From a virus: 59,151 nt of DNA. The notes beneath the pieces were generated by a model. It worked only from the letters and a program-made list of their open reading frames with translations. It was not told the DNA's origin and did no database searches. The stretch's first letter is position 1. Every line of letters begins with the position of its first letter. The position numbers were made by a program, and so were the translations under genes. Shown piece by piece: positions 2,290 to 26,484 of the stretch. The stretch spans positions 1 through 59,151 of IMG/VR virus record IMGVR_UViG_3300044999_000021; one strand, written 5' to 3'.

Positions 2290-3513
2290 TTAGGTGATGG
2301 TCACAGTCCGCCCGGTGCCGATCGCCAGCGTGACGCCCGTAATGTCCGCGTCCGGCAGGATCACGCCGTTGGTGAACGTGCAGGTGTGGTACGGGTCGAA
2401 CAATTGGCCGCCTTCGTACAACGTGCAGTTCGTCACCGTCCGGCTCCGCAAGTCCTCGCGGAACGACGCCAAGCCGTTGCCGCCGACGTTCAGAGTCGTG
2501 ATCGTGCCCGTGGACTGGTAGGACAGTGAGCCGCCGTAGATCGTCGCTGTCGTGACCGCTCCCGAGCCGGTGATGGTCAGAACCCCGCCGTATCCGAGAA
2601 TCGTCGTCACTGCCGCCGCGAGCGCAACCGTGCCCCCGGACCAGTCAAGAGTGGTGAGTGTCAGGCCGACTCCGGCGACAACCGAGCTTGTGGCATTCGC
2701 CCCGGCTGCGATCCGCAGAGTCGTGACCGTGGACGTTTCCCCGGGCTGGTAGGCAACGCCCACCGCCCCATTGTTGACGTTCAGGCTGGTGATCGATGAA
2801 CCGGTAAGCGTGACAATCTGCTCGCCGCTCTGCGCCGTCCCGGTGGCATTGATGTTGAACGTGGTGGCCGTGCTGCCCGCGGCGAGCTTGATCCGCGTCG
2901 GCGCCCCGCCCACGTTGAACGTCGTCGCCCCGAGTTGCAGGTACTGGCCCCGCCACTCGGCGTATCCCTTGGTGTTCTGCGGCGGCAGGCCGATGGAGAA
3001 GGCCGAGTCCACGTTGTTGCCGACCGTGAACGTCGTCGGCAGGATGGTATGCGCGTCGAGGGCGTAAAGGATCGGCGGCAGGTTCGGCCCGTCCGCGATC
3101 ACGTTGTCCGTGCTGGCCGGCAGACTCCCCGTGGACCAGTTGGCCGTATTCGACCAATAGTTCGGCCCCGTGCCGCTCGTGACCGTTGCTGTGACGAACG
3201 TCGGGGATCCCGACCCGCCGGCTGCGGTCGCAAAGCTGATGTTCGCCCCGTTGGCCGGCCCGGTGACCGTGATGACCGCCCCGAGGACGCTGTAGGTCGA
3301 TTCCTGGAACTCCGGTTCCGGGCTCGCCTGGAGCAACGCCAGCACTCCCGCCGCGGCATCGCTCGCGCTGGTGGTCGTGGCCGTGAATACGACCGTCTTG
3401 CCGTTGGCATTTGTAACCGTGAAAGTGCTACCGCTCGCAACAGTGCCGCCGCACGTTAGGCTCAAGACGACAGGGACGGCCTGGGCAGTTCCCAACCAAA
3501 TTGGCGTTGCCAC
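2290..3513 (-). CDS. Beta-solenoid-like tail or virion surface protein, 407 aa
   Basis: The sequence is rich in Thr, Ser, Gly, Val and Ala with regularly spaced short strands (many TTLN/TTFN-type segments between residues 190 and 360), as in right-handed beta-helix or immunoglobulin-like phage structural proteins. The first 15 residues match the style of tail proteins that begin with an MATxxW motif. The frame opens at GTG 3513. A better Shine-Dalgarno (GGGGAG) lies in front of an ATG at 3526 that is out of frame with the long ORF, so the true start is uncertain. A structured leader element lies upstream at 3563-3610. Confidence 0.65.
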   Translation of the reverse strand: MATPIWLGTAQAVPVVLSLTCGGTVASGSTFTVTNANGKTVVFTATTTSASDAAAGVLALLQASPEPEFQESTYSVLGAVITVTGPANGANISFATAAGGSGSPTFVTATVTSGTGPNYWSNTANWSTGSLPASTDNVIADGPNLPPILYALDAHTILPTTFTVGNNVDSAFSIGLPPQNTKGYAEWRGQYLQLGATTFNVGGAPTRIKLAAGSTATTFNINATGTAQSGEQIVTLTGSSITSLNVNNGAVGVAYQPGETSTVTTLRIAAGANATSSVVAGVGLTLTTLDWSGGTVALAAAVTTILGYGGVLTITGSGAVTTATIYGGSLSYQSTGTITTLNVGGNGLASFREDLRSRTVTNCTLYEGGQLFDPYHTCTFTNGVILPDADITGVTLAIGTGRTVTIT

Positions 3514-3562
3514 GAATCACGCTCATGCCGCTCTCCCCAGAGCGTTCCCCCGGTTCGCGTTC

Positions 3563-3610
3563 GTGACTGGACGGCGGAGGAATTGCCGTCCGGGTTGCAA
3601 ACCCTGTCAC
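3563..3610 (-). promoter_or_regulatory. Three-way-junction leader element E1 upstream of the 2290-3513 gene
   Basis: On the minus strand a 5-bp outer stem (GTGAC with GTCAC, plus-strand 563-567 and 606-610 of this kb) encloses two hairpins. One has GGGTT/AACCC arms (3592-3604); the other has GGACGGC/GCCGTCC arms (3569-3591). One unpaired A flanks the pair of hairpins on each side in the RNA. It starts 20 nt after the methyltransferase stop and ends 49 nt before GTG 3513. The core is shared with 12319-12364 while the outer stem differs but still pairs. Function is unknown. Confidence 0.6.
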
Positions 3611-11354: not shown

Positions 11355-12272
11355 TCAAGAGGTTGCCAAAGTAACCGCCAATTCGTCGCCGGCTGCGGTC
11401 GTTCCCCGGGCTGATCCGGACAACGCCAGCATGATCTCTTCTCGGCTGGACGCGGTCGGCGTCGGGTCCTCGAATTGCACCAGCGGCATCGAGAATGTCA
11501 GGACGTAAACGCCGTTCGTGTAGACCGCTGTGACGGGGACGCCGCCTTGGCTCAATGCGTAAGCCGCTGCGGCGTCGCCGTAGGGAAGGCTGGCCGACAC
11601 GGCAATACGCCGGTCGGTCGCCTGAATGGTTTGCAGGTCTTGAGTGTTGAAGTACCGCCCGGCATCGACGGCGTTGTCGAGCGTGATCGTGAAGTCCTTG
11701 CACTGGTAGATCGTGCTGTTGATTGTCAGCACCAATTCATGGTGCATCCAGGGATTCGTCGTCTTGTCCAGCGTGAACGACGGGAAGCTGCTGCCGGCAG
11801 TCGTGCTGTCCTCGGAACTGAGCCCGGACCCGACCGCGCCGAGCAAGTCCAGGTCAGCCGCGAGCGGAGCGCCTTGAGACGAACTAATCCGAGCGCTGCC
11901 CACGCCGACAACGGGATATTTGAAGATTTTGCCGGCACCCGTCGGGCTCAGGCCGCGCAGCACCCAATATGCCTGCATCAGGAGATTTTCAGCTTGCGGG
12001 TAACTGGTTCCGCTGGGAGTGCCGCCGAGAATCCACGGCAGCAACGTCTCCCATTCGATGGCCGTTGGTTGGCAGGACAGCGGACCACCCACCGGGCGGA
12101 TTCCCGGCACGGCCCGGTTAGCCCAGCGGGTTCGCGTTCCGGCGAGCGCGTTCGTGTCCACGAGCGGGCGCTGGCGCTTGAGGTTCTCGGAAACGAAGTC
12201 CATCGCCGTGCCCGGGGTGCCGTTGGCAGCGCCCAAGAGCAGCTTGGCAGTCACGCCCATTGATCCGGCCAT
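11355..12272 (-). CDS. Major tail (tube) protein, 305 aa
   Basis: A 305-residue protein rich in Thr, Ser, Gly and aliphatic residues, placed between the tail terminator-like gene and the tail chaperones, the usual place of the tube subunit. Sequence such as TITLDNAVDAGRYF near residue 195 fits the beta-sandwich tube fold. Start ATG 12272; a structured leader element ends 46 nt upstream. The protein is expected in many copies in the virion. Confidence 0.8.
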   Translation of the reverse strand: MAGSMGVTAKLLLGAANGTPGTAMDFVSENLKRQRPLVDTNALAGTRTRWANRAVPGIRPVGGPLSCQPTAIEWETLLPWILGGTPSGTSYPQAENLLMQAYWVLRGLSPTGAGKIFKYPVVGVGSARISSSQGAPLAADLDLLGAVGSGLSSEDSTTAGSSFPSFTLDKTTNPWMHHELVLTINSTIYQCKDFTITLDNAVDAGRYFNTQDLQTIQATDRRIAVSASLPYGDAAAAYALSQGGVPVTAVYTNGVYVLTFSMPLVQFEDPTPTASSREEIMLALSGSARGTTAAGDELAVTLATS

Positions 12273-12318
12273 GTCTCACCATCGATCACCCTCCCCCGGG
12301 TGTCTTCCGTGTTTCACA

Positions 12319-12364
12319 GCGGCAGGACGGCGGAAGATGCCGTCCGGGTTGCAAGCCCTGCCGC
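12319..12364 (-). promoter_or_regulatory. Three-way-junction leader element E2 upstream of the tail tube gene
   Basis: On the minus strand a 6-bp outer stem (GCGGCA with TGCCGC; plus-strand 12359-12364 and 12319-12324) encloses a GGG/CCC hairpin with loop CTTGCAA (12346-12358) and a GGACGGC/GCCGTCC hairpin (12325-12345), with no unpaired junction bases. It begins 5 nt after the upstream stop and ends 46 nt before the tail tube start. Its two hairpins match E1 (3563-3610) closely, but the outer stem has different bases that still pair. Confidence 0.65.
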
Positions 12365-14626: not shown

Positions 14627-15634
14627 TTAGTTCATGAAAGCGGAGGGGATGAACTTCGCCCACTTCTTGTACAAGTTCGGGTTGCTGATCGTCTGGGCCG
14701 TTCCGCTGCCCGGCGTTGCCCCCGAACCCTGACCACCCGGAACATACGTCGCGATGTTCTCCAGGCCCAACGCCTGCGCGGCGATCCGCTCCAGCTTGGT
14801 CGAGCCGACCAGGATCATGTTCGTGTCGTTGAACTCCGCCTGCTCGTGGATGTACTCGCCGTCCTCGCTGACAATCGCCTTCGGCAGCGTGAACGTCCGT
14901 AGCGCGTCGCTGATCGTCTGGAGGCCGACCTGGAAGTCCAGCACGGTCGGCAGGTTCGTCCACTCAAACAGGACGGCATCCCACCAGTAACCGAACGCGG
15001 CTTGGCCTTCCAAGTCGATCCAGTAGTGGATTTCCTTGGCTTCATAGGCCAAGTCCGATCCGGAGTTGTCGCGGAACTGAGCCGGCTTGCGGTCCTGCCA
15101 CAACAGCGGCTTGAGCGCTCCGCCGGTGTACATGGCTGCGAGACGGTAAACGAGTCCGTCGCTGTTGCCGTTGCCGGTCCCGGCGTAGAGGTTGTTGCCC
15201 GCGCCGATCGAATGGCTGCCGGCGAAGAAGTTCGATCCGTCGAAGCAAGCCGCGCTCTTCCCGGTGGCCAGCGTCTTGATGACAAACCGGCCGGGGAACA
15301 ACTTGGCCCGCATCGCCAGTTCGCGCGGCTTCAACTTGTAGCCGCCCGTCTGGTCGTCCTCGATGTCGCGCATCAGGACGCTGAAGGCCGCGTCGAATTC
15401 CTTGTTCTCGACCGTGTACTTGACAGTCGAGAGCTTTCCGAATCGCCGGTGGCCGGAGTATGCGGCCAGACCGGGAGCGGGGGACATCCAGGTGTAGTTT
15501 TCGATCCGAGCGGTACTCGGAATGACCTGGGTGAACTGTTCCCACGGCGCGGGTTCGGCGGTCGGCGCATAGGCGACCTCGAACTCATTCCGCATCGCGA
15601 CGGTGAAAATCTGGACCTGTGAGTCAATGGACAT
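14627..15634 (-). CDS. Major capsid protein, Mu gpT-like (335 aa)
   Basis: The N-terminal half has the pattern of Mu-like major head subunits: an ENYTWMSPAPGL segment near residue 45, then YTVENKEFDAAFSV, then a DIEDDQTGGY segment near residue 92, and a GSNFFAGSH segment near residue 133. Length is usual for the family. It follows the protease/scaffold and decoration genes as in Mu and is followed by a terminator. Start ATG 15634 lies 45 nt after leader element E3. It builds the icosahedral shell. Confidence 0.88.
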   Translation of the reverse strand: MSIDSQVQIFTVAMRNEFEVAYAPTAEPAPWEQFTQVIPSTARIENYTWMSPAPGLAAYSGHRRFGKLSTVKYTVENKEFDAAFSVLMRDIEDDQTGGYKLKPRELAMRAKLFPGRFVIKTLATGKSAACFDGSNFFAGSHSIGAGNNLYAGTGNGNSDGLVYRLAAMYTGGALKPLLWQDRKPAQFRDNSGSDLAYEAKEIHYWIDLEGQAAFGYWWDAVLFEWTNLPTVLDFQVGLQTISDALRTFTLPKAIVSEDGEYIHEQAEFNDTNMILVGSTKLERIAAQALGLENIATYVPGGQGSGATPGSGTAQTISNPNLYKKWAKFIPSAFMN

Positions 15635-15679
15635 TCATCACCGTCTCGCCCCCGCCCCAGGGGGTCCCCGTTTGTCTCA

Positions 15680-15727
15680 GGCGGCTGATTGGTCGGGGAT
15701 GACCAATCGGGGTGCCCCCCTGCCGCC
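15680..15727 (-). promoter_or_regulatory. Three-way-junction leader element E3 upstream of the major capsid gene
   Basis: On the minus strand a 6-bp outer stem (GGCGGC with GCCGCC; plus-strand 15722-15727 and 15680-15685) encloses a GGGG/CCCC hairpin (15709-15720) and a GATTGGTC/GACCAATC hairpin (15687-15708). One unpaired A lies on each side, as in E1. Primary sequence differs from E1 and E2 but order, sizes and distance to the start codon (45 nt) are the same. Confidence 0.6.
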
Positions 15728-15740
15728 CTTTTTCGTGGCC

Positions 15741-15932
15741 TTACGCCGCGCCGTTCAACTCCGCATTGACTTCCCGTCCCCGGGCTTCGTCACTGGCCGC
15801 CTGCTCCGCTTCGAGGAGCATGTACCGCACGACCTGAAGCGCGCCGTCGCACCGGTTCAACTGCGCTAGAACACCGGCCCGCTCGTTTTCGAGCATGGCA
15901 ATTTTTGCTTTAAGATCGCCGATGGTCAGCAT
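15741..15932 (-). CDS. Small coiled-coil protein, 63 aa
   Basis: Starts at ATG 15932, overlapping the stop of the upstream gene (TAATG). Most of it is one long helix with heptad-like leucines and an NRCDG turn. It sits between the decoration/fibre protein and the capsid protein. A small head accessory or chaperone is likely by position; the family is unknown. Confidence 0.6.
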   Translation of the reverse strand: MLTIGDLKAKIAMLENERAGVLAQLNRCDGALQVVRYMLLEAEQAASDEARGREVNAELNGAA

Positions 15933-17614
15933 TAGCTCGCCGCTCCCTTGATGACAGCGAAGTTGATGACGATGGCCTCGCTCAGCGTTCCGGCCGAAAG
16001 GTTGGTCACCGAAATCTGGCACGACCCCGCTGCCACCGTGTCAACGATGACTGCGTAGGTGCCCCCTGTGGCCGCCCCTGACTTGATTGAGACGACCACA
16101 GTATCGGTCGCTGCGATGGCCGAGTCGGTCAGCGTGAACGAGACGCGGGTCAGCGTTGTCAACGCCGCGTTGTTCATCGTGATCGCGCCGGTGACATTGT
16201 TGAGCGTCACACCGGTTGATTTGTTGGTCGCCTGGGTGACAGCGCCACCGGCCCCGGTTGCATAGCCCACGCCGCCGGTAGGCGACGTGCTTTTGACCGA
16301 GGTGCCAAAGGCAACCGCGGTGGCGTTCGTGCCGCCGATCGTGATGGTTCCACCCGTGCCGCCGGCTGCCGCCCCGCAGTCGATTGTGATGGAACCAGCC
16401 GTGCCGGTTCCACCAGCGGACGCACCGGAAGCGATTGTGACAGCGCCGCCCGTGCCGGTGCCGGTCGCAACGCCGCCGGTGACCTGCGCGGCCCCGCCGG
16501 AACCGTTGGTCGAAAGCGATGCCCCGCCGACAATCTTGGAAACGCCGCCGTTGCCGGTCGCACCAGCGCCGGATGCTCCACCGGTCAGGCCGGCGATGGC
16601 CCCCGCAGCCGTTCCGTTGCCGGCCCCGGCTGCGAGCGTCAGCGCTCCGGCTGTCGCATTGCCGTTCGTGCCTGCTCCCCCTGTGATTGTGACCGCCGCT
16701 CCGGACCCGGAAGTCGCCCCGCCGGCACCGCCGGTGATTGTCACAGCACCGCCGGTGCCAGTCGTTCCGCCGGCACCGCCGACCAGAGACGACGCCCCGC
16801 CAGCGGCCGAGCCTTGCCCGGCCCCGCCCGTAAGGCTGACAAGACCGCCGGCCGCATTGCCGGCCGTTCCCGCACCGCCGGCCATGACGACAGTTCCGCC
16901 CGCTCCGGACGCTGAACCACCGATGCCGCCGGTGACCGTAACCCCACCGCCGGTGTTGCCTGTTCCAGTGGCTGCGACACCGCCGATTTTCGTGACTTCC
17001 GACCCGTCGGTCGTCGTGAACGTCATATAGACGTTCGTGCCCTGCTGAATGACCAGCGCCGACGCTTCGTTGTCGGGGATGGCGATGTTGTTTTGGCCAG
17101 TCGTGCCGGCGAATGTCAGCGTGTTGTTCGCGATGGCCAGCGCCTGCGCGCCCGGTACCCATGCCGGGATGATCTCGACCATCGTTCCGGTCGTTCCGGT
17201 TGTCACTGTGAGGATGACCTTGGACACCCAGCCGACCAGAATCGAATTGGTGACACCGGCCACATAGGCGACATGGCTGTCGTCCAAAGCGTAGACCGCC
17301 TTGCCCTCATCCCCAGCGGTCGCAAGGGCGATCGGCATGGTGAACTTGAGCGGCTGATCGACCTCGACCAACTTGTCGCCGAGAACGTCGGTCGTTGCGA
17401 CAGTGACTTTGTCGCCGGTCGAGCTGCCGACCATGATGCCGGTGAATGTCAGGCCCGCAGTGTCGCCCGCCTTCACAGCGTTGCCCGACGCATTCAGGGC
17501 GATCATCGACCCGATGTAATAAGTCGCGTTCGTGCCGACATCGATTCGCCGGTAGTCTTTGGTCTGGGTGTATGGGACCGTTGTGGACCCGACGCCAGCG
17601 GTAGCATTCGCCAT
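15932..17614 (-). CDS. Head decoration protein fused to a polyglycine-rich fibre region (560 aa)
   Basis: Residues 1-130 look like a capsid decoration domain (small beta-rich module, with a DKVTVATTD segment) in the usual place before the major capsid gene. Residues about 215-450 are almost only Gly, Ala, Thr, Ser and Val with GGA/TGG spacing of about 6-10 residues, compatible with a polyglycine-II or triple-bundle fibre. Residues 470-560 form a different beta-rich C-terminal domain. Antisense frames look open because of the simple composition. It probably projects from the head surface and may bind host or environmental polymers; this is inferred. Confidence 0.65.
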   Translation of the reverse strand: MANATAGVGSTTVPYTQTKDYRRIDVGTNATYYIGSMIALNASGNAVKAGDTAGLTFTGIMVGSSTGDKVTVATTDVLGDKLVEVDQPLKFTMPIALATAGDEGKAVYALDDSHVAYVAGVTNSILVGWVSKVILTVTTGTTGTMVEIIPAWVPGAQALAIANNTLTFAGTTGQNNIAIPDNEASALVIQQGTNVYMTFTTTDGSEVTKIGGVAATGTGNTGGGVTVTGGIGGSASGAGGTVVMAGGAGTAGNAAGGLVSLTGGAGQGSAAGGASSLVGGAGGTTGTGGAVTITGGAGGATSGSGAAVTITGGAGTNGNATAGALTLAAGAGNGTAAGAIAGLTGGASGAGATGNGGVSKIVGGASLSTNGSGGAAQVTGGVATGTGTGGAVTIASGASAGGTGTAGSITIDCGAAAGGTGGTITIGGTNATAVAFGTSVKSTSPTGGVGYATGAGGAVTQATNKSTGVTLNNVTGAITMNNAALTTLTRVSFTLTDSAIAATDTVVVSIKSGAATGGTYAVIVDTVAAGSCQISVTNLSAGTLSEAIVINFAVIKGAAS

Positions 17615-19332: not shown

Positions 19333-19461
19333 ACCGGACCGGTCTGCCGATGTTCTATGCGGCTAGTCTGATAGTTTTGACATGCGGGCGAAAGGGATGC
19401 GCTGACGCTAATTGCGAGCGGGGAGGGGTTTCGGTGCGGAGTTGGCCGAGTTTGCGGGGTT
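19333..19461. repeat. Intergenic module with two motifs shared with 24394-24485
   Basis: The palindrome-like 12-mer ACCGGACCGGTC (19333-19344) and a 24-bp sequence (19438-19461) both recur in the same order in the gap upstream of the small terminase gene (24394-24405 and 24462-24485). Spacing differs (93 versus 56 bp). Both sites lie between late genes. They might be late regulatory sites or relics of an inserted sequence. The remainder of the 476-bp gap 19157-19632 holds the terminator at 19281 and the short ORF at 19507. Confidence 0.55.
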
Positions 19462-24393: not shown

Positions 24394-24485
24394 ACCGGAC
24401 CGGTCCTATCGGGCAGCGCACGAACAGGCACGGCCGGCCCCTTATGTCCGGGGTCGGCCGTGGAGTTGGCCGAGTTTGCGGGGTT
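24394..24485. repeat. Second copy of the shared intergenic module, with a strong hairpin
   Basis: Contains ACCGGACCGGTC (24394-24405) and the 24-bp repeat (24462-24485) also found at 19333-19461. Between them lies a hairpin with CACGGCCG (24429-24436) and CGGCCGTG (24455-24462) arms plus an inner GGGG/CCCC pair. No T-run follows. It occupies the gap between the ParB-like and small terminase genes, so it may control the packaging genes. A possible 26-codon ORF at 24492-24572 was too weak to call. Confidence 0.5.
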
Positions 24486-26169: not shown

Positions 26170-26221
26170 CAGAACTTCTGCTCAGACACTGGACGCATTC
26201 TAGGCGATGCGTTAGGATATG
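26170..26221. promoter_or_regulatory. Divergent control region with palindromes
   Basis: The 94-bp gap between the leftward late genes and the rightward early genes has an 11-bp palindrome (CAGAA C TTCTG, 26170-26180). It also holds the left copy of a 15-bp inverted repeat (ATGCGTTAGGATATG, 26207-26221) that runs into the start codon of the excisionase-like gene. The right copy is at 26458-26472. This looks like the main genetic switch. Confidence 0.55.
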
Positions 26222-26454: not shown

Positions 26455-26484
26455 TTGCATATCCTAACGCATAGAGTAGGATAT
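26455..26484 (+). promoter_or_regulatory. Putative early promoter with operator in the spacer
   Basis: TTGCAT (26455-26460), a 16-nt spacer and TAGGAT (26477-26482) resemble a sigma-70 promoter directed rightwards. The right arm of the 15-bp inverted repeat (CATATCCTAACGCAT, 26458-26472) occupies the spacer, and TAGGATAT at the -10 repeats part of the same motif, so a bound protein would block transcription. Confidence 0.45.

Follow-up and report, generated by a model that had tools for sequence, protein, structure and literature searches.

What occupies the gap in front of the major capsid gene of this phage, and what could it do there? The window, that is, the whole stretch analyzed, comprises 59,151 nucleotides of an IMG/VR virus record. 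Reading along its minus strand, the genes for the portal and the head protease are followed by a gene of 560 aa and a small ORF, then by element E3 and a major capsid gene of the Mu gpT type; a gene for the tail tube comes farther on. E3 lies on the same strand and takes up most of the interval from the stop codon (15741) to the capsid ATG (15634). The first-pass annotation had described E3 as a three-way junction with an outer stem, a small hairpin, a long hairpin and a single A, and this junction (helices P1–P3) is indeed contained in the minimum-energy fold of positions 15632–15745, minus strand. The parts of E3 and the gene that follows are:

15722–15728, minus strand: 5′ strand of P1, GGGCGGC, with the junction A next to it at 15721
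15709–15720, minus strand: hairpin P2, GGGG(GGCA)CCCC, from the minimum-energy fold and the composite descriptor
15687–15708, minus strand: hairpin P3, GATTGGTC(ATCCCC)GACCAATC, whose loop is the putative switch strand
15680–15685, minus strand: 3′ strand of P1, GCCGCC, with a junction A at 15686
15665–15670, minus strand: 3′ strand of PK1, CGGGGA, complementary to the P3 loop AUCCCC and 8 nt beyond P1
15649–15664, minus strand: hairpin P4, CCCCC(TGGGGC)GGGGG, directly after PK1 and with the PK1 strand repeated in its loop
14627–15634, minus strand: major capsid gene, Mu-like gpT (PF10124), with its ATG 14 nt after P4

E3 is a real element and is bigger than the three-way junction alone, because PK1 and P4 belong to it too. 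These two parts, as well as the relationship to int-alpA RNA, had been missed in the first reading. The folding energy of E3 is unremarkable (z = -0.98, 29 of 200 shuffles being equally good) and was dropped as evidence. The case for E3 therefore rests on its composite structure (P1–P3 with PK1 and P4, score -76.9) and on its occurrence in relatives.

Upstream of E3, the small minus-strand ORF (15741–15934) that follows the 560-aa gene apparently starts in an overlapping TAATG, which suggests translational coupling at this point. Elsewhere in the window there are an exact 24-nt direct repeat, GGAGTTGGCCGAGTTTGCGGGGTT, at 19438–19461 and 24462–24485 (5 kb apart), and an inverted repeat with arms of 25 nt (26197–26221 and 26458–26482), which are 84% complementary and 236 nt apart.

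A plus-strand reading of E3 has a comparable folding energy but shows no composite structure before any start codon, and was rejected. In this direction (15680–15733) the E3 helix ends and CTTTTT follows, as in a terminator, while the neighboring genes are on the minus strand. A transcriptional role of the element (pausing, antitermination or termination) could draw on this T-run, but the gene strand has none. Conservation, covariation and spacing from the start codon argue instead for an RNA linked to translation starts, and a transcriptional role, or an origin as chance inverted repeats, is highly improbable.

Two sister elements are located in the same phage:

12287–12364, minus strand: E2, with P1-P2-P3, PK1 GGAAGA (12303–12308) and P4 CACCC(GGGGGA)GGGTG (12287–12302)
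11355–12272, minus strand: tail tube gene behind E2, Phage_tube_2 (PF18906)
3529–3610, minus strand: E1, with P1-P2-P3, PK1 GGGGGAA (3545–3551) and P4 CGCTCT(GGGG)AGAGCG (3529–3544)
2290–3513, minus strand: gene behind E1, with a GTG start 15 nt after P4

The common plan proposed for the three elements stands as far as their parts are concerned. In detail, E1 and E3 have the junction bases A / none / A, whereas E2 lacks an unpaired junction A, its P1 being closed by A-U, and its P2 has only 3 bp and a 7-nt loop. Similarly, the equal distance to the start codon holds for E3 and E2 (14 nt from P4) and is off by one for E1 (15 nt). The sequence of E3 is unlike the others, as had been noted; an 89%-identical stretch is common to E1 and E2 and has no counterpart in E3. 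As regards the genes behind the elements, the capsid and tail tube assignments were correct, but the gene behind E1, which had been called structural, has no Pfam or PHROGs match. A DNA methyltransferase gene precedes E1.

The capsid site was compared among eight distinct IMG/VR relatives, and seven of them (L005, L006, L007, L009, L010, L014 and L142) carry the element at the same place, with different sequences and compensating changes. L142 was retrieved after the descriptor had been fixed and is thus an independent case, with the element before its capsid gene at a score of -62.5. The capsid relative L013 has no element at the site, and neither has L147, which is much more remote (29% identical). 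The cultured gpT phages Mu, JBD30, Mx4, Salinibacter, Thiobacimonas and RC1 showed no element upstream of gpT. The capsid regions of L007 and L008, which come from two metagenome records (3300050505 and 3300007076), are near-identical. In searches at the sequence level, blastn of E3 against phage records gave no match, and the exact pattern GGGNTTGCAACCCGGACGGC occurs twice in the viral and genome collections, both times without the surrounding element.

The first-pass annotation had named absence from close relatives as a point that would speak against the elements. The capsid site resists it, but homologues of the E1 and E2 genes are present in G005 and G006 without the element. Protein searches of viral contigs found no relatives of these two genes. 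This lineage has probably acquired the module at additional genes, or else G005 and G006 have lost it. A conserved leader element of the capsid and tail-tube mRNAs is supported.

A descriptor composed of P1, P2, P3, PK1 and P4, with the P4 loop pairing to the P3 loop, was run on both strands of nine phage records. It was compared at 547 start positions of ORFs 200 aa or longer, and only the sites upstream of the capsid genes and of the E1 and E2 genes scored -67 or lower, with the next best at -58.4, a ranking that is not independent of these elements since the descriptor was designed on them. At each of nine sites, including E1–E3, none of 400 dinucleotide shuffles matched the observed composite score. 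When strands were swapped between the nine phage elements, pairing fell from 100% to 45% in P1, 37% in P3 and 46% in P4. The fit of each P3 loop to its own PK1 was equalled by none of 20000 permutations. The fit to its own P4 loop was equalled by 86 of 20000, a modest signal, as every loop is rich in C and every partner in G. Accordingly, the fold is kept in the nine elements while the sequence of the helices drifts. The structure of the element and its position before start codons are well supported, and chance inverted repeats are largely refuted.

A fold that is kept despite such drift might be a binding site, recognized by a protein of the phage or mobile element or by a trans RNA, for instance in an autoregulation of capsid translation. 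It would suit this proposal that a single phage has the element three times, in front of genes with products that might be kept in balance. Against it, E3 is unlike E1 and E2 in both its loops and its helices, the junction differs from that of int-alpA, and the sampled downstream proteins are diverse. Such a binding site would be quite unlikely.

The relationship of E1–E3 to known RNA families was examined in Rfam. The Mu-gpT-DE RNA (RF03012) is named in PMC7657543, and its name links it to gpT capsid genes; it gave no match at E≤10 around E3, nor at E≤5 in four relatives. The int-alpA RNA (RF02996, gathering cut-off 35.8 bits), which is typed “Gene; sRNA” in Rfam, matches the capsid-leader element of L010 with 43.1 bits, the only capsid-site relative above the cut-off. 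The element of L009 stays under it with 27.6 bits, and E1–E3 have no match to this model. Our own model from 55 sequences gives 32.8 bits for L142, which is outside the training set, and does not detect E1–E3. Helices P1–P3 covary in 55 int-alpA-type RNAs (score 0.680 vs. 0.209 when shuffled).

E1–E3 share with int-alpA the P1-P2-P3 three-way junction, a strand farther downstream that complements the P3 loop, and a P4 bearing a second copy of that strand, followed by a start codon. They differ in their longer P4, which is farther from the start codon, and in their gene context, with the tail tube gene following E2 and the capsid gene following E3, whereas the int-alpA genes stand behind integrases. 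The conserved int-alpA junction UA ... GAAA ... CUG is absent from E1–E3, while UA and GAAA are kept in L010, L142 and L009. A hammerhead-like reading of the GAAA junction was dropped, as E1–E3 have no GAAA. At the capsid gene, L010, L142, L009, L007, L005, L006 and the window form a series from canonical to compact, with the same gene and similar spacing. Based on this series, E1–E3 are read as a compact relative of int-alpA and not as members of the family.

In the literature searched, no paper describing a function of int-alpA was found. Of 398 Pseudomonadota genomes that were sampled, 50 have a match to RF02996 above the cut-off. In 76 of 88 bacterial loci a start codon (ATG in 71) is placed 14–33 nt behind the model, and most elements start shortly after the stop of the upstream ORF, which is an integrase gene in all five cases tested. 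With a start codon just behind and a stop codon just before, int-alpA occupies the 5′ UTR of the gene that follows, a cis position read from the loci of this analysis, and there is little room for a promoter.

Several genomes contain up to six int-alpA elements. In one locus (L124, G027:C33) three matches fall within 2.5 kb, two of which have lost the pseudoknot strand and appear to be decayed. Directly behind these RNAs the genes vary widely; Pfam gave no match for four of the five that were scanned and an RNase_T exonuclease domain for the fifth. A blastn search of two int-alpA loci against E. coli genomes gave no match.

In 75 distinct bacterial loci, covariation links the P3 loop to PK1 (z = 14.8) and to the Shine-Dalgarno zone (z = 8.9), and PK1 and the Shine-Dalgarno zone resemble each other in sequence (z = 10.7), although these permutation scores are inflated by the relatedness of the loci. 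PK1 and the second copy track each other through GAAGG, GAAAGG, GAGG, CAGGA and GGGA. The second copy is centered in a hairpin loop in 56 of 63 cases, and the spacer hairpins are stronger than shuffled ones (-8.0 vs. -5.3, sd 0.24). The copy ends a median of 7 nt before the start codon, and its pairing with the P3 loop is equal in strength to that of PK1 (-10.7 and -10.5). The anatomy of E3 points first to translation control, as PK1 has a second copy near the start codon, which in the bacterial relatives is at the position of the Shine-Dalgarno.

One loop with two near-identical partners of equal strength, one of them at the ribosome site, suggests a translational switch. We consider E1–E3 to be intercistronic, cis-acting switches of translation in the 5′ UTR, a compact variant of the int-alpA architecture, with a probability of about 0.58. 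The three-way junction would present the pyrimidine-rich P3 loop to two alternative partners, PK1 and the near-copy in the P4 loop. In the ON state PK1 would be formed, leaving P4 and the ribosome site free; in the OFF state pairing of the P3 loop with P4 would occlude the landing zone of the ribosome. Two inputs may set the choice, namely the co-transcriptional order, in which PK1 emerges ahead of P4, and ribosomes that finish the upstream gene 5–20 nt before P1. The P4 copy of E1–E3 is separated from the start codon by about 20 nt, too far for it to be the Shine-Dalgarno itself, and what closing would block is therefore the 30S landing zone and not the Shine-Dalgarno. By this distance the switch reading appears weaker for E1–E3 than for the int-alpA loci. 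The alternation of the two pairings in vivo, the identity of the ON state, the trigger and a bacterial-like working of the compact phage form are what we infer from these arrangements.

In E1, E2 and E3, respectively, PK1 (-12.8, -11.0 and -14.5) is stronger than the pairing of the P3 loop with P4 (-8.6, -8.3 and -11.2). This would fit a constitutive enhancer or insulator of translation, in which PK1 and P4 would hold upstream structure away from the ribosome site and provide a standby site without switching, and capsid and tail-tube genes do need high expression. However, the equal strength of the partners in the int-alpA loci suggests a balance and not one locked state. We regard the enhancer as a serious rival, though on the unlikely side. 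The duplicated PK1 strand could also have another purpose, e.g., to offer two sites to one trans-acting partner.

The first-pass annotation had proposed that the elements protect or process the mRNAs. In flaviviral xrRNAs the P3 loop pairs downstream. These RNAs comprise helices P1–P4 and pseudoknots in about 70–80 nt (PMC7385498), and E1–E3 have the same plan of three-way junction, loop pseudoknot and following hairpin, at the level of secondary structure only. A knotted fold might block a 5′-3′ exonuclease of the RNase J type, or be an endonuclease site, and yield stable monocistronic capsid and tail-tube mRNAs. The elements lie within operons and immediately precede genes whose products are required in high copy number, with little room for a promoter. 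On the other hand, E1–E3 have no Rfam match and are placed in phage 5′ UTRs between genes, with the pseudoknot strand duplicated in P4. Protection leaves this repeat and its covariation unexplained, as well as the Shine-Dalgarno spacing of the int-alpA copy, and the genes that int-alpA precedes are also many and varied, without any indication that they have to be highly expressed. A role in protection or processing is thus unlikely.

The proposed switch has partial parallels in other leaders. In the preQ1-II and SAM-II riboswitches a loop-downstream pseudoknot forms near the ribosome site. E1–E3 also have such a pseudoknot, but a conserved ligand-binding core was not encountered, the junction varying among E1–E3 and their relatives, and the architecture precedes varied genes. 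In the Helicobacter aapA3 mRNA, successive anti-SD structures form around one Shine-Dalgarno in an order set by transcription (PMC6733600). Competing, transcription-ordered pairings around one Shine-Dalgarno would be common to both, whereas aapA3 has several anti-SDs for one SD and here one loop, within a three-way junction, has two SD-like partners.

It is an even bet that the int-alpA RNAs and the capsid-leader variants belong together in a single superfamily of bistable switches that control translation in cis. In each of them one loop would pair either with a decoy strand or with the near-duplicate of that strand beside the ribosome's landing site, and phages would have placed this module before structural genes, above all the capsid gene. 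The orphan Rfam class int-alpA gains a candidate cis role, together with a compact variant that the current RF02996 model misses. For the phage, this offers a possible answer to how the output of capsid and tail-tube protein may be tuned from genes inside an operon.
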